This document shows positions 30,193 through 40,114 of a stretch of DNA of 64,000 nt, one piece after another. The position numbers and the translations under genes were made by a program. Source of the DNA: an uncultured Bacteroidales bacterium (lineage in GTDB: Bacteria; Bacteroidota; Bacteroidia; Bacteroidales; UBA932); contig CAMVKH010000001.1 of assembly GCA_947168065.1 (NCBI GenBank), forward strand, positions 1 through 64,000, given 5' to 3'. The notes under the pieces are model-generated. The model saw nothing but the letters and a program-made list of their open reading frames with translations. It did no database searches and was not told where the DNA came from. Numbering within the stretch: the first letter of the stretch is position 1; every line of letters starts with the position of its first letter.

Positions 30193-31176
30193 ATGACTAC
30201 TGGTAACGTCCGCCCCGCCACGATGGAGCGTATCACGAATGCCGAACTGGCCCAACGATTCATTGACGAACAGATTCAGGAACTGCGTACGCAGATCGGC
30301 GACAAAAAGGTGCTGCTGGCTTTATCCGGCGGCGTCGATTCCTCGGTTGTTGCAGCCTTGCTCATCAAGGCGGTAGGCAAACAGTTGGTTTCCGTCCATG
30401 TCAACCACGGACTCCTTCGCAAAGGCGAGGCCGAGCAGGTGGTACGTGTTTTCCGTGATGAACTTCACGCCAATCTGGTCTATGTGGATGCCGTTGACCG
30501 TTTCCTCGACAAGCTGGCCGGTGTGGCCGATCCCGAACAGAAGCGGAAAATCATCGGTGCGGAATTCATCCGCGTTTTCGAGGAAGAGGCCCGCAAACTG
30601 GACGGCATCAGTTTCCTGGCCCAGGGGACGATCTATCCCGATATCATCGAATCCGGCCCGGTCAAATCGCACCACAACGTAGGCGGCCTTCCGGAAGACC
30701 TTCAGTTTGAACTCGTTGAGCCCATCAAGCTGCTCTTCAAGGACGAAGTCCGCGTCGTCGGCAAGCAGTTGGGACTGCCCGACAACATGGTTTTCCGCCA
30801 GCCTTTCCCGGGACCCGGCCTGGGTGTCCGCTGCACCGGCGCCATCACCCGCGACCGGCTGGAAGCCCTTCGCGAAAGCGACGCCATCCTGCGCGAGGAA
30901 TTCGCCAGGAACGGACTGGAAGGCAAAGTCTGGCAATACTTTACCATCGTTCCCGATTACAAGTCAACGGGCATCCGCGAGGGCAAGCGCAGCTGGGACT
31001 GGCCGGTCATCATCCGTGCCGTGAACACCCGCGACGCGATGACCGCCACCATCGAGGAGATTCCCTACAAGCTGCTGCACCACATCACGCAGCGCATCAT
31101 CACGGAAGTCCCGGGCGTCAATCGCGTCTTGTACGACCTGACGCCGAAGCCGACCGGAACGATCGAGTGGGAATAA
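30193..31176 (+). CDS. guaA: GMP synthase, ATP-pyrophosphatase and dimerisation domains only
   Basis: 327 residues. The protein contains the PP-loop ALSGGVDSSVVA (45-51), HVNHGLLRKGE, the QGTIYPDIIES and VKSHHNVGGLP segments, and the C-terminal dimerisation domain ending KPTGTIEWE. It lacks the roughly 200-residue N-terminal glutamine amidotransferase domain of ordinary bacterial GuaA. It resembles the two-subunit enzyme of archaea, where a separate GuaAa supplies ammonia. No such gene is visible nearby. Start codons upstream were not found, and a minus-7 box TATTTTTG (30121-30128) lies close before it, so the truncation is not an annotation artefact. Confidence 0.92.
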   Translation: MTTGNVRPATMERITNAELAQRFIDEQIQELRTQIGDKKVLLALSGGVDSSVVAALLIKAVGKQLVSVHVNHGLLRKGEAEQVVRVFRDELHANLVYVDAVDRFLDKLAGVADPEQKRKIIGAEFIRVFEEEARKLDGISFLAQGTIYPDIIESGPVKSHHNVGGLPEDLQFELVEPIKLLFKDEVRVVGKQLGLPDNMVFRQPFPGPGLGVRCTGAITRDRLEALRESDAILREEFARNGLEGKVWQYFTIVPDYKSTGIREGKRSWDWPVIIRAVNTRDAMTATIEEIPYKLLHHITQRIITEVPGVNRVLYDLTPKPTGTIEWE

Positions 31177-32113: not shown

Positions 32114-32505
32114 GGGGATGTACTGGTTTTGACGGTAAATGATGTCGGGCGGTAAGCATGCCGAGCGTCGTAGCCCCGCTCGTAAATCTCAGACTACAAG
32201 CCATAACTGGCAACTACAACTATGCACTCGCTGCCTAATTTGCCAAGCAGATTAGCTTAATCGCGCGGACCAGGTCCGTAGCGACGAGTATCCCGCCGGA
32301 GTTTCCGCCTTCTCTCGCCGGCATACGGGGTATCATTCAAGAAGGATGCGGGCGCCGACGCTTCTACCGCGCCTTAAGATTCAGAAGCTAAGAGGCCGAT
32401 GGCCCGCCTACCGGCAGCCGGCCCCCGACAACCAAAGGCAGGATAAGCATGTAGAAAGCCCCTTGGCGCTTTATTCGGACGGCGGTTCGACTCCGCCCAT
32501 CTCCA
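32114..32505 (+). ncRNA. ssrA: tmRNA
   Basis: The 5' end GGGGATGTACTGGTTTTGAC and the 3' end with the T-arm GGCGGTTCGACTCCGCC and CATCTCC close the tRNA-like domain (7-bp acceptor with one G-U, discriminator A at 32505, CCA not encoded). The internal reading frame at 32209-32238 would add GNYNYALAA and a stop. This is the same length and has the same YALAA end as the known Bacteroides GETNYALAA tag. An upstream in-frame alternative (AITGNYNYALAA) cannot be excluded. tmRNA rescues stalled ribosomes with SmpB. The 3' end is a classical integration site, and an AT-rich insertion follows. Confidence 0.95.
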
Positions 32506-32695
32506 CAGTATAGACTGGATATCAGTCTATTAGAATAAATACGCACGACAATACGCACACTATAAGCTATTTTCGTGCTTTTTTATACCCAATGCTAGAC
32601 GAGCCCGGAATATTGCTTTATTCCCGAGAGGGTACGGGGGTACACGTGTCTACACTCGCACGAAGATGGGGTGCGATCCTGTAATTTTTTTTTTG

Positions 32696-33280
32696 TCAAA
32701 AAGCAACCCCGAAATGAAGATTCAAAGTTGGAGCAAATCCCCTGATAGTCCTTTCGCTTGATTTAATAACATCAGAAATGTGGAAGTGCTCATAATGGTG
32801 TTGCTGGACATTGGCACCGATTCCAACAAACCATGTAGTACTTTTAGATTTGAAATCTACCCCTATGATGGGTTCAACAAATAATGCCTCAAGATTTTTA
32901 TTTTGGTTTCTCCCGAGGTCGAAAGTATAACCAACATCTCCAACAATGAAAGGAGCAATTGAACCATTCGTTAAGTTATATTTAACTTGAAGAAAAACAG
33001 GAACAAGGTACTTGTTGTCCCTACTCTCATAGTCACCGAGAGTATTGTCATCTGAATAGTAGTAGAGAGTCTCCGCGTACTTGAAGCCAACACCTAAACT
33101 CACAGCGAATTTCTCGCTAATTCGATATCCATTAATGATGGAAACGCCAGCACTATATTTAGAGAGATTGGTAACCCCAAGACCTGCCGCGGCATCAATA
33201 GATAATTCGTAGCCTCTGGATTGGGCAAACAAAAAGTTCGAGTAGATAACAAGAAAAAGAAGGAACAATAATCTTTTCAT
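32696..33280 (-). CDS. Outer-membrane beta-barrel protein, function unknown
   Basis: 194 residues with a clear signal peptide (MKRLLFLLFLVIYSNFLFA-Q20). Alternating hydrophobic strands (YELSIDAAAGLGVTNLS, FAVSLGVGFKY, YLVPVFLQVKYNL, APFIVGDVGYTF) and a terminal Phe (LHFGVAF) are the signs of a small eight-stranded outer-membrane barrel. The sequence is not recognisable as a named family. Codon use is AT-rich, unlike the genome around it. It starts 4 bases after the lipoprotein gene and is clearly its operon partner. Confidence 0.75.
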   Translation of the reverse strand: MKRLLFLLFLVIYSNFLFAQSRGYELSIDAAAGLGVTNLSKYSAGVSIINGYRISEKFAVSLGVGFKYAETLYYYSDDNTLGDYESRDNKYLVPVFLQVKYNLTNGSIAPFIVGDVGYTFDLGRNQNKNLEALFVEPIIGVDFKSKSTTWFVGIGANVQQHHYEHFHISDVIKSSERTIRGFAPTLNLHFGVAF

Positions 33281-33284
33281 AATA

Positions 33285-34112
33285 CTATATTATCTTGGTC
33301 AATTCTTTTGCCATTTGCTCCATAACCATGTCAATATTTGATCCCTTCGTTATGGTTGGTGGCATAAGAGCGAGCAACAGCCCTCCTAACTGCGGGAAAT
33401 ACTGCAGTCCACCAATATAATCAATTGACCCTTCCTCAAAATGCTTATGCTCAAAGTAGGCTGAATAATTGATAGTATCCACACTAATGACATCATATCT
33501 CTCTTTTAAAAAGAAGGGCAGAGCCGATAAATCTGAGAGGCTAATAATCGTACCTGCCTGGGTCAACGCCCCATTATCGAAAAAATAGCAGACATATGGA
33601 GATTTTATATTACCAGTCTTGTAAACAACCAGCGAATTAGTAGAGCGTCGATCTTTCTCTCTTGTATTTTCGTATGCAGCTATTGTCGCTGGGCCTTTGT
33701 TCCAGAGAGATTGTCCCGGACTTGGCCAATAGTAATTGAGAGCTGTCTGCCCAGACGGTTCACAAACAAAAGGTAAGTCATAATCATTATATTTAGGACT
33801 AACAAGAACCCATAATGCAAAGCGATCTGCGCCTGTAGTGTAAATATTTGCAAATCCTACATGATTTGAATGGATTTTACCACCGTCAGCTGTAGCACAA
33901 AAGGGATCACTCGAAGTCCAAACTAACTTATCCAGGTTTTTACCTTGTAAAGAAATAGTTTTTCCTGCTTCGATCCCATGAAAAATAAAGTTGTCGAGTA
34001 CCGGTGTGGTATCTTCCTCAACTACTTCATTCATTTCCTTTCCTACACAAGCAGAGAAAAGGAATAGGCCCATCAACAGAATGAGGTTCAAATAAATAGA
34101 GAATGTTTTCAT
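33285..34112 (-). CDS. Lipoprotein of unknown function
   Basis: 275 residues from MKTFSIYLNLILLMGLFLFS with the lipobox FSAC, then an acidic linker (KEMNEVVEEDT). The segment NFIFHGIEAGKTISLQGKNL and a following Ig-like stretch suggest a beta-sandwich, but no family is recognised. A start 24 codons upstream is possible. It would run through the terminator hairpin at 34116-34141, so 34112 is preferred. The promoter at 34266-34296 is about 150 bases away, leaving a long folded leader. It pairs with the beta-barrel gene downstream, suggesting a surface complex. Confidence 0.75.
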   Translation of the reverse strand: MKTFSIYLNLILLMGLFLFSACVGKEMNEVVEEDTTPVLDNFIFHGIEAGKTISLQGKNLDKLVWTSSDPFCATADGGKIHSNHVGFANIYTTGADRFALWVLVSPKYNDYDLPFVCEPSGQTALNYYWPSPGQSLWNKGPATIAAYENTREKDRRSTNSLVVYKTGNIKSPYVCYFFDNGALTQAGTIISLSDLSALPFFLKERYDVISVDTINYSAYFEHKHFEEGSIDYIGGLQYFPQLGGLLLALMPPTITKGSNIDMVMEQMAKELTKII

Positions 34113-34115
34113 AAT

Positions 34116-34248
34116 AAAAAAGCGTGCACCGCCTTGCACGCCATCGGGGCTGCGACACCCCACCGTTAATGCGAAGCAGTACACGCCGTGTACGCCTGCA
34201 CCTTATAACGGTATTAGCCTTAAAAATCAAGTGTCGCAGTTCGATGGC
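34116..34248 (-). promoter_or_regulatory. Highly folded leader RNA ending in a terminator next to a start codon
   Basis: Nested pairings on the minus strand: 34242-34248 with 34140-34146 (7 bp); 34231-34239 with 34150-34158 (9 bp); 34206-34212 with 34162-34168 (7 bp); and an apical GTACAC/GTGTAC hairpin (34179-34184 with 34188-34193). A separate 7-bp GCGTGCA/TGCACGC hairpin (34122-34128 with 34135-34141) follows, then six T, ending 3 bases before the lipoprotein ATG. The base of the large fold shares two bases with the terminator stem. It could be an attenuator, a riboswitch-like element, or a small RNA with its own terminator. No known aptamer class is recognised. Confidence 0.6.
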
Positions 34249-34265
34249 TAAGGCAATATGTTTAA

Positions 34266-34296
34266 CAAAGATAAACAAAAACAATAGAAGTTCAAA
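34266..34296 (-). promoter_or_regulatory. Promoter of the folded leader and lipoprotein operon
   Basis: Minus strand TTTG (34293-34296), 19 bases, TATCTTTG (34266-34273), a full consensus match. Start predicted near 34259. Confidence 0.8.
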
Positions 34297-34340
34297 AAAT
34301 TGATAATGCCAGCTATGTCTACTGATGAAAACGTCAGGTA

Positions 34341-34616
34341 TTACTGATGTTTAAGTGCTTTTTCATTGACCATAAATGAATAGTGCAACCAATCAAGCGT
34401 GCTGATATACCTCTGGATTCTGGGCTCTTGTATTAGTCTGCAACCGAGTGAAGAAGCCGATGAAACAGAAACACCTGGACTCATTATAAGGCGGTAAGCT
34501 TTTGTCGCTGAATACCCAAGAACATAAACGGCTTGGCAAAACAGTTTCTCTTTTTCGTTGAGGCAAGTCCCGACCTGGGCAGGGAACATACCGCTTTCTT
34601 CGTACTTTTTCTTCAT
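34341..34616 (-). CDS. Phage terminase small-subunit-like protein
   Basis: 91 residues from MKKKYEESGMFPAQVG. The segment LNEKEKLFCQAVYVLGYSAT and what follows (KAYRLI...SASSLGCRLIQEPRIQRYI) fits the helix-turn-helix pattern of terminase small subunits: a search for a hungry-type 'TxKQxxFVxxY', a 'G-x-x-A-T-x-A' turn, and 'G-x-R-L-x-x-x-P-x-V-x-x-Y-I'. These proteins recognise phage DNA ends for packaging. No large subunit is present, so this would be a solitary remnant. The start is uncertain: a GTG at 34661 would add 15 residues. Confidence 0.55.
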   Translation of the reverse strand: MKKKYEESGMFPAQVGTCLNEKEKLFCQAVYVLGYSATKAYRLIMSPGVSVSSASSLGCRLIQEPRIQRYISTLDWLHYSFMVNEKALKHQ

Positions 34617-34661
34617 AGCCGAGAGCGTTATGTCAGATTTCGTATTTGTTGCTGATAACAC

Positions 34662-35190
34662 AGTAGGGCATCATTTATGCGTTCTATCGGGAAATGCCCG
34701 ACAGTTTGGTATATGCCGCCCTTAAGAAACTTCCCGACTGGATGGTTTCAGTGAACGAAAGATTTGATAAACGGATCAACGAACAATAATATGCAGGAGA
34801 CGCCATAGGTTCTACTATGACTTCTTCCTTTTTTTCCTTTTTCAAGATGGGCGGAGAAACCCGCCAAACAGCCGCAAAACAATCGGCCAGAGAATGCCAT
34901 GAGAGGCCGATGAGTTTGCGCCAGAGGCCGAAATCAGGGCTTGGCGCAAACATGTATGCCAGGGAAGTCTCTCCGGATGGGTATGGCTTGCGCCTGTTTG
35001 GCGAAAAGGATCGGGCAACCAGCGGCCGGTGCTTTTGAAGGTACGATTCAGCCTACAGTTCCTCAAGGAGTGTCCCCATTGCCCTGCGCCCTGGATGGGA
35101 CGGGACAGCATCGCTTAAATGCTTTGCGCAAATTTCTTAATTGTTTTCAGATATTTTCTTAATTTTATTAGGAGATATTGTTTTTTTGTC
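34662..35190. other. Region without a convincing gene
   Basis: Several overlapping frames run here but none shows a recognisable domain or signal peptide. A 31-residue rightward frame at 34694-34789 (MPDSLVYAALKKLPDWMVSV and a basic tail) reads like the end of a real protein and may be a gene fragment left by the insertion. 34840-35110 is GC-richer, closer to the flanking chromosome. A minus-7 box TATCTTTG for blaI ends the region at 35191-35198. Confidence 0.5.
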
Positions 35191-35223
35191 TATCTTTGCG
35201 GTAGAAACCATCCAGAACGACCC

Positions 35224-35586
35224 ATGAAACAGCAACTGACAGCCAAAGAAGAGGCCCTGATGAACATCTTTTGGGAGAAGGGCGACCTTTGTATCCGCGA
35301 TCTTGTCGAAAGCCTTCCCGAACCCCGGCCCAATTATAAGACGGTGGCCACGCAGGTCGGATTCCTCGAAAACAAAGGCTTCCTGCGGCGTCGGCCCGTC
35401 GCCAATACCTTCATCTATGAAGTGGCCACCACCGAACGCCAGTACCGCGGCTCCACGGTTGGCGAAGTCGTGTCGCGCTACTACGGCAACTCCTACGCAA
35501 GCCTGGTATCGCAGTTTGTCGAAGAAAAGAAGCTCGACGTCGATGAACTCAAGGCTCTGATCGAGCAGATAGAAAACCAGAAATAA
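35224..35586 (+). CDS. BlaI/MecI-family transcriptional repressor
   Basis: 120 residues. It has a winged helix with LTAKEEALMNIFWEKGDLCI and PRPNYKTVATQVGFLENKGF (recognition helix and wing), and a C-terminal dimerisation helix pair. BlaI-type repressors block a target operon until cleaved after a membrane sensor signal. The adjacent M56 gene, 10 bases downstream, is that sensor. The start at 35224 fits the family N-terminus and the minus-7 box at 35191-35198. A 35-residue longer frame is not supported. Confidence 0.93.
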   Translation: MKQQLTAKEEALMNIFWEKGDLCIRDLVESLPEPRPNYKTVATQVGFLENKGFLRRRPVANTFIYEVATTERQYRGSTVGEVVSRYYGNSYASLVSQFVEEKKLDVDELKALIEQIENQK

Positions 35587-35596
35587 TCAGGAAACG

Positions 35597-37330
35597 ATGA
35601 CGGCACTTCTTATCTATATCGGGAAAGTCGCGCTGCTGCTGGTAGCGTTCTATCTGTTCTATAAGCTGCTGCTCAGCCGTGAAACATTCCATCGCCTCGG
35701 CCGGTATGTCCTGATGGGCGCGCTGGTTCTCTCGGCGCTGCTCCCTTTCTGCATCATCACGGTACACCGGACGGAGTTGATTCCCGCCGGAGAGCCAGCC
35801 TCTGTTGCGCATGTTTCGGAATCCGAAATGCTGGCCGATGGCATGCAGAATCCGGATATGGCGGCAACTGGTTCAGAAGCCTCTGACATGACGGCACAAG
35901 CCGCACCCCCCCAAACTCCCTGGTGGCAATGGGCCTTGCTGGGCCTGTACGTCGCCGGTGTGATCGTCACGCTTTCCCGTACGGCTTACTCGGCCCTGCA
36001 GGTATCCCGCCTGATCCGCAGCGGCGAACAGCATTACGATGCCGACGGTACGTCCATCATCGTCGTCGATCACGACCTGGCCCCCTTCAGCTGGATGCAG
36101 TGGATTGTCCTCTCAAGAAACGATTTCAAAGAGGCCAGCCCCTTCATCCTCGCGCACGAAAAGGCGCATCTGGCCTTCGATCATTCGAAGGAAGTGCTGC
36201 TGGCCGAGATCTTTTGCGACCTGCAGTGGTTCAATCCTGCTGCCTGGCTGCTGAAGCGCGAGCTGCGGGCTATCCACGAGTACGAGGCCGACGATGCCGT
36301 GCTCAGCCACGGTGCCGACGTGAAGGCCTATCAATATTCCCTTGTAAAAAAAGCTGTTGGTGCGAGCGGCTACTCCATCACCAACAGCTTCCATCACAGT
36401 ATCCTTAAAAATCGTATTACCATGATGTCAAAATCCAGATCTCCGAAGGTCAGGGCGCTCAGAGGCCTCTACCTTCTGCCGTTGGCGCTGGTCTTCCTGG
36501 CAGCCAACGCCCGCACGGTCACTGACTACAAAGTTAGTGATAATTCCGTAACGACCGACAAGCAAGTCAGCCTTGTCGTACCGAAATCCTCCGCCCCCGT
36601 CGAGAAACGGACCGAGCATGCCTACTTCAAGATCATCAAGGGCGACGCCGTTGCCGACACGCTGTTCCTTTATCTGCGAACCTTCGCCCCGGAAGAGATT
36701 GACGGCCTCTACAACTACAGTCCTATCTGGGAAAAAGACCTGCCCAACGTCCTCAGCGGAAAGTATCACACCGTCGTCCTCGATGCCGAACCCGAATGCA
36801 AGATGGGCCTGATTGAAGATGTCCGCGAACAGCTGCGCGGCAAAGAACTCCTGAAGGTCAGATACAACTGTGACTTCGGCAATGGACAGGAGAAAGAAGC
36901 GCCCCGCCTGCTTCCGCCCACCCGTGAAAACGCCGAAAAGAAAGGCTTGACGGTCCAGGAAGATTTCAAACTGAGCAAAGAGACCACCCACCGGCTGTTG
37001 ATCAACGCCCGCGGCCAATTCCGCCTGGACGACAAAAACATCGAAACGGAGGCATTGCAGCCCACATTGGTCAATATCATCAAAGCTCAGCCGCAGACCT
37101 ACCTGATCCTTCTCCAGAACGATCGCGCAACGCCATACGGCGCATTCGTGAACGCGCAGTCAACCATCCGGGCCGCCGTTAACGAGGTCCGCGATGCCTA
37201 CACGATGCAGCACTACGGCAAACCCTATAGCAGCTACGAACTGGAAGAAGAAGGCATTGAAATCCGCAATGCCGTCCCGCTGAAAATTATGGAAAGTGAT
37301 ATCCAAGGTATCAAAGTTCAGGTTAAGTAG
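35597..37330 (+). CDS. BlaR1/MecR1-type M56 membrane metallopeptidase
   Basis: 577 residues. Membrane helices lie near 5-22, 36-55 and 113-133, with a fourth after the protease loop (LPLALVFLAA). The cytoplasmic gluzincin motif is His187-Glu188-x-x-His191 (LAHEKAHLAFDHS), with the family EYEADDAVL further on. It would cleave or inactivate the BlaI-like repressor when its C-terminal part senses a signal. The roughly 270-residue C-terminal extension is not a penicillin-binding domain, so the signal is unknown. It ends at a strong terminator (37356-37409). Confidence 0.9.
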   Translation: MTALLIYIGKVALLLVAFYLFYKLLLSRETFHRLGRYVLMGALVLSALLPFCIITVHRTELIPAGEPASVAHVSESEMLADGMQNPDMAATGSEASDMTAQAAPPQTPWWQWALLGLYVAGVIVTLSRTAYSALQVSRLIRSGEQHYDADGTSIIVVDHDLAPFSWMQWIVLSRNDFKEASPFILAHEKAHLAFDHSKEVLLAEIFCDLQWFNPAAWLLKRELRAIHEYEADDAVLSHGADVKAYQYSLVKKAVGASGYSITNSFHHSILKNRITMMSKSRSPKVRALRGLYLLPLALVFLAANARTVTDYKVSDNSVTTDKQVSLVVPKSSAPVEKRTEHAYFKIIKGDAVADTLFLYLRTFAPEEIDGLYNYSPIWEKDLPNVLSGKYHTVVLDAEPECKMGLIEDVREQLRGKELLKVRYNCDFGNGQEKEAPRLLPPTRENAEKKGLTVQEDFKLSKETTHRLLINARGQFRLDDKNIETEALQPTLVNIIKAQPQTYLILLQNDRATPYGAFVNAQSTIRAAVNEVRDAYTMQHYGKPYSSYELEEEGIEIRNAVPLKIMESDIQGIKVQVK

Positions 37331-37355
37331 TCCCACTATCATTACTTCGCTCGGT

Positions 37356-37409
37356 GTGGAAGCGTTCAGGGCTGGTCCAAGGCCCACCCTGAACCCTTCC
37401 ACATCTTTT
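37356..37409 (+). terminator. Long stem terminator after the M56 gene
   Basis: GTGGAAG and GTTCAGGG (37356-37371) pair with CCCTGAAC and CTTCCAC (37387-37402), 15 bp interrupted by one C-C mismatch, followed by ATCTTTTT. The rest of the gap to 37575 holds only GC-rich small inverted repeats and a leftward open frame (LLQVLGPVAGFGIEQYETG) without a start codon. Confidence 0.85.
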
Positions 37410-37575
37410 TGTTCCCCGTGAGCCCCTGAGGGGCACTGCCCTTCGGGCGGCCTTTGGCCGGGCAGCTCCGTGCCGGTCGGAGTACCAGGTACACGCCCGT
37501 TTCGTACTGTTCGATACCGAAACCGGCTACCGGTCCCAGTACCTGCAGCAATTGTTCTTGATTCAGTTATAAAAC

Positions 37576-38739
37576 TCAGATAATCTCGCCTGCCCAAAGG
37601 GCTTTGAAGAAGTCGGTCACGTAATACAGGTCAATGTCTCCTGACCGTCTGGTCAAGAAATCTCTGGAGACAATGATCTGCTTGGCATCCGGGTGCTCTT
37701 CCACGAATTTCTTCAAGCCTTTCTTGTGTTCGGTTTCCACGTGGTCCGTCGATTTGATCTCAATGGCAACGCGGGCATCGCCGATCACGGCGTCAACTTC
37801 ATCGTTGGTGTAGGTGTGCCAGTAGGTCAGTTCCTCCTCACTGCCGGAGTATCCCAAGTAAGCACGGATTTCCTGCATCACGATGCTTTCAAAGGCGTGC
37901 CCATATTCAGGTGTTCCTGGCATCAGGTGAAAACGGTGCAGCAAGTAGTTGGGAATGCCGACATCGAAGAAATAGAACTTGGACGTCTGGTACAGTTTGC
38001 GTTTGATCACCTTCCGGTATGGTTTGACCTCGAATCCCAGAAGGGTATCGTAGAGAATCTTGAAATAGGCCTTGGCCGTATTGACAGACACGCCGCAATC
38101 GGAGGCAACATTGTCGTAATTCAGGATCTCCGTGTTGGTGACAGCTGCCACTTCGAGGAAGCGCTCAAAGGTATCGATATTCTGGACCAGGGCTTCCTCT
38201 TCGATTTCCTCCTTAAGGTACAGGTTCACATAGTTCTTGAGACGCGCCCTTGCATCCTTCACATCATAATGGCGCGGAATCATGCCGTTCTGGATGGCCC
38301 GCCCAAAGTCGTAATCAGGAATCTCTGCATAGACCAGCGGGTACAGATTTTCCTCGTTTGCCCGCCCACCCAGCTGGTTGACACCGGCCTTCTTGATCTT
38401 CCTGGCACTGGAGCCGCTGAGGATGAAATGAAGGTCATTCTCGACCATCAACTTGTGAACGACATCCAGAAGCTCCGGGAGTTTCTGGATCTCATCTACA
38501 ATGACCAGGGTCTTGGGCGGATATTTCACCAGCATCTCGTAGAACTCCATGGTACGACGCTTGAATCGTTTTCTCGTATCAGGATCAAGAAGGTCAACGT
38601 ATATGGCCTGGGGGAAACGTTCCCTCAGAAGTGTTGATTTCCCTACCTGACGGCCGCCAAACAGGAACATGCCCTCATCCAAGCGGTTCTCTATGTCGAA
38701 TACTCTATGATACATAAAAATCGTGAAATTTTGCAACAC
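37576..38739 (-). CDS. AAA ATPase with DUF4143 domain
   Basis: 387 residues. The Walker A motif GGRQVGKST is at 28-36 and Walker B is TLVIVDEIQKL. FILSGSSARKIKK is the sensor region. A winged-helix/linker follows, then the DUF4143 nuclease-like C-terminal domain (DEVDAVIGDARVAIEIKS, the PD-(D/E)XK-like pattern). These ATPases are abundant and variable in Bacteroidota, often in accessory DNA. Their role is unproven, with toxin-antitoxin or defence links suggested. MYHRVF at 38715 is an alternative start. Confidence 0.88.
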   Translation of the reverse strand: MLQNFTIFMYHRVFDIENRLDEGMFLFGGRQVGKSTLLRERFPQAIYVDLLDPDTRKRFKRRTMEFYEMLVKYPPKTLVIVDEIQKLPELLDVVHKLMVENDLHFILSGSSARKIKKAGVNQLGGRANEENLYPLVYAEIPDYDFGRAIQNGMIPRHYDVKDARARLKNYVNLYLKEEIEEEALVQNIDTFERFLEVAAVTNTEILNYDNVASDCGVSVNTAKAYFKILYDTLLGFEVKPYRKVIKRKLYQTSKFYFFDVGIPNYLLHRFHLMPGTPEYGHAFESIVMQEIRAYLGYSGSEEELTYWHTYTNDEVDAVIGDARVAIEIKSTDHVETEHKKGLKKFVEEHPDAKQIIVSRDFLTRRSGDIDLYYVTDFFKALWAGEII

Positions 38740-38844
38740 ATCTGACGATATTTGCGAAAAATCGTCAACGGCAATGCAAATATAATGAAGTTTATCTGAA
38801 TACCAAAACCCTCCTTTATTTTATCTCAGTTTACTCAAAAACCG

Positions 38845-39024
38845 CTACAAGGCAACGGTCGCCAGTACATCAATTATCTTCTTGGCATCAAAGACCAGGA
38901 GCCCGCGGTCGCGCCAGTTATAGACTGTCTGGCGGCTGACTTTGTTCCAGTTCGCCAGCTCTGTAGAGGTGCAGCGGTCGTGACTTTCGGCCGTGCGTTC
39001 CAGGCGGGCCAGATGCTCGGCCAG
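38845..39024 (-). pseudogene. Helix-turn-helix protein fragment with in-frame TGA
   Basis: 59 codons without a start codon read LAEHLARLERTAESHDRCTS, then TELANWNKVSRQTVYNWRDR and GLLVFDAKKIIDVLATVAL. The pattern ELANWNKVSRQTVYNWRDRG is a clear MerR/excisionase-like helix-turn-helix. Directly before it in frame is ALDY followed by TGA (39025-39027), where TGG would keep the frame open. The same frame upstream runs into the end of the GNAT gene. Either a nonsense mutation broke it, or a non-ATG start is used. The rest of 38740-39061 holds nothing else. Confidence 0.6.
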
Positions 39025-39061
39025 TCAGTAATCCAAGGCCGGGCGAAAGTCAGCGGTATTA

Positions 39062-40114
39062 TCAGAGTTTGCGGCCGACTTTTTTGAGGATGCGTTTGAC
39101 TTTGCGGTTGCGTTTGACCAGCCAGCTTTCGACCAGCTGGTTTTCCAGTTCGGTGATATCCATGTCTTCGGGCTCGCGCTTCTTGTTGTGGAAAAAGCGG
39201 AGGTAGGCACCGATGTGACGGCGTTTCTTCTCGTGGTAGATGGCATCGAACGGGAGGAGGACGCCGGTGTCCTCGATGTTATGCATCAGGCGGTTGACGG
39301 CCGTGCCGAACATCAGCATCTGGGAGGTGATGGAGAGGTAGGCGGTCATGTTCGGCGGGATGTTGACATTCCGCATCCGGGCGGCCCCCCGCAACAGTTT
39401 GTAGTCTTCAACAGGGTCTTCATTATGTAAGACCAGATCCATCAGGGCGGGATCGGAGCCGGGCATGACCGCCTGGTCGTCCCAAGGACGGACGAGTTCT
39501 TCCTTGTCGCCGAAGTGCTTCCAGAGGAAATGGTAGATCAGGTCTCTGGCGATATAGTCATAGGAGGGATAGATGGTGACTTTCCCGAAGAAATAGAGCA
39601 GGTTGGGATGCTTCATGATGATGGCCACCAGTCCGTCCCACAGGTTGTCCAGGGCAAAGATGGACCTTTGTCCATTCATGGAAGGGACCACGAAATTCCG
39701 CCCCAGTTCGATGACGTACGGCAGGTACTCTTCGATGAACTTCTGGGAGAATCGGAACTGATGGGAACTGGCCAGGATGGGTTGACCTTTCTCGTCAAAC
39801 ACCGCATCGGAGCCGAAGAGGAAGCGATAGCCGCCGATGATGGCCTCTTCGTCCGGGTCCCAGACGATCAGCTGCTTATAGGGCTTCTCCATCTTGTCGT
39901 ACTCATCGAGGTCTATCTCGTTGCCCGTAGAACCGCCGGCTTCGCGGAAAGCGACCTCGCGCAGCCGGCCGATCTCCGTGACGACATTCGGAGAATCCTG
40001 CCAGGTAACGATGTAGAGTTCGTTGTGTCCCTTGTTGGTGTCTTCCAGTTTCTTGGATGGGGTAAGCTCGGCTTTGAGCAGCTCGACGGGGACGGGATCG
40101 ATAATTGTCTTCAT
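39062..40114 (-). CDS. glsB: GNAT-type N-acyltransferase, GlsB-like (glycine lipid synthesis)
   Basis: 350 residues, an OlsB/hemolysin-type acyltransferase domain. Features seen are ITEIG-type core VVTEIGRLREVAFREAGGST, a later acidic strand LIVWDPDEEAIIGGYRFLFG, ELGRNFVVPSMNGQRSIFAL and a basic C-terminus. In Bacteroides the homologue GlsB attaches a 3-hydroxy fatty acid to glycine, and GlsA adds the second acyl chain. The partner acyltransferase lies 13 bases upstream on the same strand, here first in the operon. The start MKTIIDPVPVELL at 40114 was chosen because a longer frame overlaps the upstream gene. Assignment to glycine versus ornithine or serine lipids is inference. Confidence 0.8.
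   Translation of the reverse strand: MKTIIDPVPVELLKAELTPSKKLEDTNKGHNELYIVTWQDSPNVVTEIGRLREVAFREAGGSTGNEIDLDEYDKMEKPYKQLIVWDPDEEAIIGGYRFLFGSDAVFDEKGQPILASSHQFRFSQKFIEEYLPYVIELGRNFVVPSMNGQRSIFALDNLWDGLVAIIMKHPNLLYFFGKVTIYPSYDYIARDLIYHFLWKHFGDKEELVRPWDDQAVMPGSDPALMDLVLHNEDPVEDYKLLRGAARMRNVNIPPNMTAYLSITSQMLMFGTAVNRLMHNIEDTGVLLPFDAIYHEKKRRHIGAYLRFFHNKKREPEDMDITELENQLVESWLVKRNRKVKRILKKVGRKL

Follow-up and report, generated by a model that had tools for sequence, protein, structure and literature searches.

A candidate family of mobile, structured 5' leader RNAs with two exclusive pairings before the U tract in Bacteroidota

A folded leader between a promoter and a lipoprotein gene

The window, by which we mean the whole 64,000-nucleotide stretch of uncultured Bacteroidales DNA that was analysed, carries a two-gene unit on its minus strand. 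The first gene (33285..34112, minus strand) encodes a lipoprotein of 275 amino acids with a signal peptide and, by eye, the lipobox LFSAC, and no Pfam, PADLOC or PHROGs family was found for this protein. The second gene (32696..33280, minus strand) encodes an outer-membrane beta-barrel protein of 194 amino acids that matches OMP_b-brl with an E-value of 3.6e-6 and, at 27.7 bits, falls slightly below the Pfam cut-off of 28.7. A paralogue of the barrel, 32% identical, is located elsewhere in the same genome (G000:C10:38445-38999, L020). Upstream of the unit is an open reading frame (ORF) resembling a terminase small subunit (34341..34661, minus strand; Terminase_2 6.1e-6, phrog_51 8.1e-8), which is a mark of a mobile element, and beside the other end of the unit lies a tmRNA gene (32114..32508, plus strand; RF00023, 155 bits) that could be an attachment site.

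The lipoprotein gene is separated from its promoter by a structured leader RNA of about 145 bases (34116..34261, minus strand), which begins close to where the transcript should start, runs through a U tract and is supported by its fold z-score and by the covariance models R1 to R3 described below. The promoter (34266..34296, minus strand), as read in the sequence, consists of TTTG at -33 (34296-34293), a 19-nt spacer and the -7 element TATCTTTG (34273-34266), and it is of the Bacteroidota -33/-7 type. A scan for sigma-70 promoters, which are of another type, returned two sites, both on the plus strand. The predicted fold of the leader has an energy of -60.0 kcal/mol (z -3.6), a value equalled by none of 200 shuffles. 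The earlier note on this DNA, made from the sequence alone, had described a promoter followed by nested helices of 7, 9, 7 and 6 bp, a terminator and the lipoprotein ATG, and all of these were confirmed on the minus strand. The helices correspond to P1 (34248-34242 with 34146-34140, 7 bp), P2 (34239-34231 with 34158-34150, 9 bp), P3 (34212-34206 with 34168-34162, 7 bp) and the P4 hairpin (34193-34188 with 34184-34179, 6 bp), all on the minus strand, with P3 and P4 taken from the minimum free energy fold.

The T run at 34121-34116 (minus strand) is likewise as described, consisting of six T and ending three bases (ATT) before the lipoprotein ATG at 34112. A terminator scan of 1 kb gave 3 sites, compared with 0.9 (sd 0.9) in shuffles, and two of the 3 are overlapping versions of one local hairpin, GGCGTGCA/TGCACGCT (34121..34142, minus strand), with 8 pairs. 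Beyond what had been noted before, the 3' arm of this terminator has a longer second partner. In the arrangement that we call helix T (minus strand), positions 34187-34169, which include the 3' strand of P4, form 18 pairs, interrupted once, with the tail at 34139-34121, so that the helix directly abuts the U tract. A possible 5' pseudoknot, Pk1, is also new; here GCCTTA (34254-34249) would pair with TAAGGC (34222-34217, minus strand) to form a pseudoknot with P1/P2, a pairing assessed by a shuffle test. With its ATG only three bases past the U tract and no -7 box of the form TAnnTTTG inside the leader RNA, the window lipoprotein seems to need read-through.

No Rfam 15 family reached its gathering score in the leader, and the Rfam scan of the window gave just the tmRNA and two tRNAs. 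Relaxing the leader search to E up to 10 brought up five chance matches to miRNA or snoRNA families, all far below their cut-offs, and 13 related loci compared with Rfam at E up to 1 gave one tRNA and a chance match to a miRNA, both lying away from the RNA. The earlier statement that the leader belongs to no recognised riboswitch class is therefore borne out by the Rfam check, and 6S-like and other Rfam RNAs were rejected because no Rfam match was found.

Relatives of the leader and their conserved structure

Using blastn against 61 genomes, one long match was found outside the window's genome, in genome G036 (73% identity over 176 nt), where the RNA precedes a different lipoprotein but a barrel 75% identical to that of the window. 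A 20-base pattern drawn from the window and G036 gave seven stretches over genome contigs, five of which are Bacteroidota records with full leaders. The other two (L022, L026) lacked an R1 match and were set aside as chance, as were both stretches that a pattern gave in viral contigs (L039, L040), which lacked an R1 match and lie inside ORFs. Model R1, built from six sequences, matched 2 of 40 genomes of the genus and at least 3 of 393 of the order, whereas R3 matched 4 of 40 genomes of the genus, at least 3 of 395 of the class and 3 of 40 in another family of the class; the order and class counts include the window's own genome and are lower bounds, because just seven candidates per genome were scored in searches of more than 40 genomes. 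Model R2 matched every one of eight genomes in a different family (f28), giving 16 matches in all; a single genome has as many as four, and two lie in tandem. In the window's own genome, which is 77% complete, the R1 and R3 searches found no second copy of the RNA. Elsewhere, a second copy (L048) lies a few hundred bases after the first in contig C35 of genome G438 (L041/L048), and L068 has, by eye, an apparent partial copy within a few hundred bases of the first.

The RNA also occurs in viral contigs. Two pattern scans yielded six such contigs, all of them R2 matches at 29 to 35 bits and representing three different RNAs; three further patterns gave zero matches over viral contigs. By blastn, the L044 RNA matched one phage record, a GenBank "Bacteriophage sp." entry that is unverified and unannotated. 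The same type of search gave no match in phages or plasmids for the window RNA, none in phages for the L058 and L061 RNAs, and none in plasmids for the L037 RNA. Matches on the opposite strand to the L028 RNA and to the window RNA are palindrome mirror images and were not counted. The analysed set consists of 29 members, falling into 22 clusters at 80% identity and 14 at 70%, and omits the near-duplicates L023, L041, L050, L055, L009/L030, L057, L059 and L060. Because the models that retrieved the members cover P1, P2 and the local terminator, counts for these three elements are biased in their favour, whereas T, P3, P4 and Pk1 stood outside the models.

Compensatory change, which the earlier note had named as support for the fold, was found in P1, in the inner part of P2 and in T. 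Across 22 distinct sequences, 96.8% of P1 cells are paired and all seven pairs change on both sides, and two-sided changes affect 6 of the 11 modelled pairs of P2. The inner seven pairs of P2 hold in all 22 sequences, whereas the outer four fail in 11 or 12 of them; P2 was placed by strings given by hand in L064, L065, L066 and L068. The covariation score of the whole structure is 0.516, which none of 500 shuffles reached, and slid versions did not exceed 0.110, in an alignment that was fitted to P1 and P2 and is hence biased towards them. Although the structure is conserved, few residues of P1 and P2 are invariant, and in L065 and L066 both CUACCAC and P2 are replaced. Individual folds of relatives place P3 and P4 helices of other sequence in the same position. 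Taken together, the RNA family and its structure are well supported. Since the relatives differ in sequence and share one fold in Bacteroidota genomes and viral contigs, they look like an undescribed family of leaders. A conserved leader peptide was considered and rejected; a short ATG frame crosses the tail, but loop lengths shift the frame between relatives, as judged by eye.

Pk1 would join bases before P1 to the loop after P2, as in CTATTGTC/GACAATAG of L045 and TTTACTC/GAGTAAA of L053. Compared with mononucleotide-shuffled strands, 13 of 18 members are at or below 0.05, and the window is at 0.09. However, a member's own partner ranks first in 2 of 18, and Pk1 is the weakest of the structural claims because the strands of other members often pair equally well. 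By eye, the region separating the -7 box from Pk1 often contains a short hairpin, placed where the transcript should begin (L037, L042, L044, L056, L061, L063); the window's group has no space for it.

Helix T was found although the models left the apical strand unpaired. Tested against 300 dinucleotide shuffles, it scores 0.01 or lower in 28 of the 29 members; only L038, at 0.73, does not. It has 18 pairs in the window, 17 in L046 and 19 in L051, with up to six pair types at single tail positions, and G-U pairs are tolerated here as they are in P1. When a tail was compared with T partners taken from other 70% clusters, its own partner came out ahead in 21 of 29 cases and was outranked in 8, and it fell within the top three in 24; without the cluster filter it is first in 10 of 18. 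The U tract was placed by a text pattern, with L056 needing a pattern of its own, and is weak in L038. For the local terminator hairpin, in comparison, pairing surpasses mononucleotide shuffles at the 0.05 level in 13 of 29 members; in the window's group this hairpin is strong. The proposal that the base of the large fold shares bases with the terminator stem thus holds in the window, where GGC (34142-34140) belongs both to the local terminator and to the 3' strand of P1, but local pairing exceeds shuffles in just those 13 members. T, and not the local terminator, is the general feature of the family.

The residues that T uses on the P4 side are mostly already paired in the local apical fold (84% on average), and this holds in the 28 members with a significant T. 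P4 and T exclude each other, because T mostly uses bases that form P4, and two mutually exclusive pairings that are both kept are the mark of a switch. Simple geometry suggests, moreover, that T and a complete P1-P3 rod cannot coexist. The apical fold of P3 and P4 is predicted to be more stable than T in all 29 members, and T may therefore form rarely or need help. The T-rich stretch that follows strong pairing in members could also belong to a constitutive terminator or insulator, which would shield mobile cargo from outside transcription and hold it at a low, fixed level with no switching. A terminator that serves as an insulator has been reported close to one end of the integrative element Tn916 (PMC11658703). 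A plain terminator, though, needs no 145-nt fold, no P1/P2 covariation, no 5' pseudoknot and no second strand partner, and we consider this account quite improbable.

Promoters, downstream genes and their exchange

The -7 box TAnnTTTG is present within 90 nt upstream in 23 of 26 members (L066, L067 and L068 being omitted from this test), compared with 10.6% of first-order Markov shuffles. No exact match to it occurs in L046, L051 and L064, and 15 of the 23 members with a -7 box have TTG in the -33 stretch. Downstream, an ATG ORF of at least 60 amino acids starts within 100 nt in 24 of 29 members, and 16 of these ORFs have a hydrophobic N-terminal segment, as called by a hydrophobicity rule only, which misses L027. 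The remaining five members have no ORF within 100 nt (L044, L046 at a contig end, L048, L052, L068), and the downstream ORF of L051 appears to be accidental. The genes themselves are diverse. They include several lipoproteins, two of them in viral contigs (L058, L061), leucine-rich repeat proteins of the BspA type (L056, LRR_5 2e-76; L045, by eye), and, 64 bases behind the RNA at L066:3-1444, an EcoRI-type adenine methylase followed by a GmrSD-type endonuclease that is cut by the contig end. Other genes behind the RNA encode a small protein in the L037 group, near a guaA-like gene, and proteins without a Pfam family in L064 and L067; the names guaA, pgk, lgt, HAD, ligA and TonB receptor were assigned by eye. 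Judged in the same way, the RNA cassette lies beside or a few kb from a guaA-like gene in several families (L027, L037, L043 and the window, where that gene is at 30193-31176), which may reflect a preferred slot or chance.

Two loci, L023 and L025, share one chromosomal slot. As far as the cassette they show 92% DNA identity, and from the RNA 3' end upstream, which covers the RNA and its promoter, 95.5%; no DNA match is found between the flank and the RNA 3' end, the first proteins being unmatched. These loci keep the RNA but carry different genes at one slot. A second pair in one slot, L049 and L053, differs in both RNA and gene DNA, with the promoter side and 43 bases before the ATG being kept. 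The earlier note suggested that the leader could control the lipoprotein and beta-barrel pair or be a small RNA in its own right. A folded leader with a terminator does stand at the lipoprotein start, but it is not specific to these genes, and regulation special to the pair was rejected given the varied genes behind relatives and the exchange between L023 and L025.

Retention of the RNA when the gene is exchanged would also be expected of a stand-alone small RNA, stable and pseudoknotted, that has its own promoter and terminator and whose 3' end is sealed by T; it would act in trans or on the mobile element, and the gene would be expressed by leaky read-through. Consistent with this, the promoter and U tract frame the RNA closely, some members are without a nearby ORF, and each matched genome outside f28 has a single plus-model match. 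What such an RNA leaves unexplained is the regular position of an ORF start close behind it, three bases after the U tract in the case of the window, and the tail and P4 sequences vary so greatly between members that a shared target in trans is hard to imagine. We regard the small RNA as the main rival to a leader switch and a serious one, if on balance unlikely.

The surroundings of the RNA also suggest mobility. The nearest island to that of the window, L024, contains HTH_17, a D5-type primase, a toprim protein and a terminase small subunit-like protein, followed by the RNA and a lipoprotein, with a tRNA at the far end; an ORF in L024 resembles, by eye, the end of an integrase and matches no Pfam family. 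The content of this island resembles that of phage-inducible islands. The terminase-like ORF of the window is 70% identical over 93 amino acids to the L024 copy, the window lipoprotein is 42% identical to the lipoprotein in the same place, and the tRNA of L024 is in a place comparable to that of the window tmRNA, with an 83-bp common stretch of 69% identity. No same-strand repeat of the tmRNA of at least 12 bases, such as might mark the other end of the element, was found in 32509-40000. From this arrangement, 32114-34661 of the window is likely the remnant of an integrated element beside the tmRNA, of which L024 would be a fuller relative.

DNA homology between the window and L024 ends at the RNA 3' end, just as it does between L023 and L025. 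Together with the varied cargo, this boundary could be read as a DNA-level recombination site, at which a folded single strand would insert gene cassettes in the manner of integron attC sites, whose core boxes are RYYYAAC/GTTRRRY and which go with an integron integrase, with the RNA being incidental. Nevertheless, homologous exchange between near-identical RNAs leaves the same junction, the promoter box is kept closely upstream, G-U pairs are tolerated in P1 and T, and an unsystematic look noticed no tandem gene cassettes. We find a recombination site very hard to credit as the explanation.

Known systems and a proposed read-through switch

Type III toxin-antitoxin systems (ToxIN) likewise consist of a promoter, a pseudoknotted RNA, a terminator and an ORF, the RNA being a repeat array and ToxN an endoribonuclease. 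The RNA described here is not a repeat array, and no ToxN-like protein came up when the proteins directly behind the RNA in L023 and in 14 of the 29 members, 15 in all, were searched with Pfam. Transcription attenuators and terminator riboswitches, of which crcB and pfl are described and Bacteroid-trp is listed in PMC2864571, share with our leader a promoter, a structured leader, mutually exclusive pairings, a U tract and an ORF; in the window and most members, promoter, U tract and ORF follow in order on one strand, and of the two conserved exclusive pairings one, T, is flush with the U tract (28 of 29). In contrast to these systems, the leader has no Rfam match, no fixed aptamer sequence and a long-range alternative helix, and its downstream genes share no pathway. 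Another phage-borne nascent RNA said to act on termination is HK022 put, which is described as a suppressor of termination in itself (PMC9378689), whereas in our RNA the fold shares strands with the terminator. A further candidate is HMP_4078, a palindromic motif of 109 bp (PMC8040213) that occurs chiefly in Bacteroidetes, in the neighbourhood of D5 N-terminal and phage integrase domains. Taxon and neighbourhood resemble L024, and the motif might be related to the leader family; the two were compared by description only, and no intrinsic terminator is predicted for HMP_4078 in that description. We found no description of the family in the literature, including parts of the RNA-motif papers PMC8040213 and PMC2864571, whose supplementary motif tables were outside this scope. 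Attenuator leaders work by a known logic; what seems to be new is the family itself, along with its long-range terminator and its mobile cargo.

Given the observed promoter box, structure, covariation, exclusive pairings, gene placement and gene exchange, the reading that we prefer, at a probability of a little over one half, is that these RNAs are an undescribed Bacteroidota family of mobile structured 5' leaders that control read-through by switching between P4 and T. The leader would travel with mobile cargo genes, as in viral contigs, the satellite-like island and chromosomal slots with exchangeable content. It would have its own promoter and, once transcribed, would fold into P1-P2-P3-P4 with a 5' pseudoknot, and the 3' strand of P4 could pair either with the 5' strand of P4 or with the tail before the U tract, forming T. 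Pairing of the tail, whether with the P4 3' strand or, as in some members, with the end of P1, would stop transcription before the gene; when P3 and P4 hold and P1 keeps its 3' strand, polymerase would read through into it. The choice of state may be made by a signal acting on the P1/P2/pseudoknot domain, such as a small molecule, a protein, or a change in the polymerase or its speed. We infer that termination and read-through both take place, which of the two states is on, and that a signal exists.

It is possible, and we put this forward tentatively, that the family represents a new class of RNA switch, a general leader for horizontally moved Bacteroidota cargo in which a long-range terminator stem arises from the unfolding of an upstream hairpin. 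The global fold, read by a signal such as phage infection, would then decide expression, and the RNA would also be the homology anchor for cargo exchange. Mobile lipoprotein and defence genes are many in Bacteroidota, and their control is largely unknown; a shared leader before unrelated cargo would let one reporter design test that control, and the variable but complementary P4/T pair gives precise tests by compensatory mutation. The leader is, in addition, a handle for finding cargo genes. If the proposal is true, surface lipoproteins, BspA-repeat proteins and restriction-modification would be cargo under one leader class.
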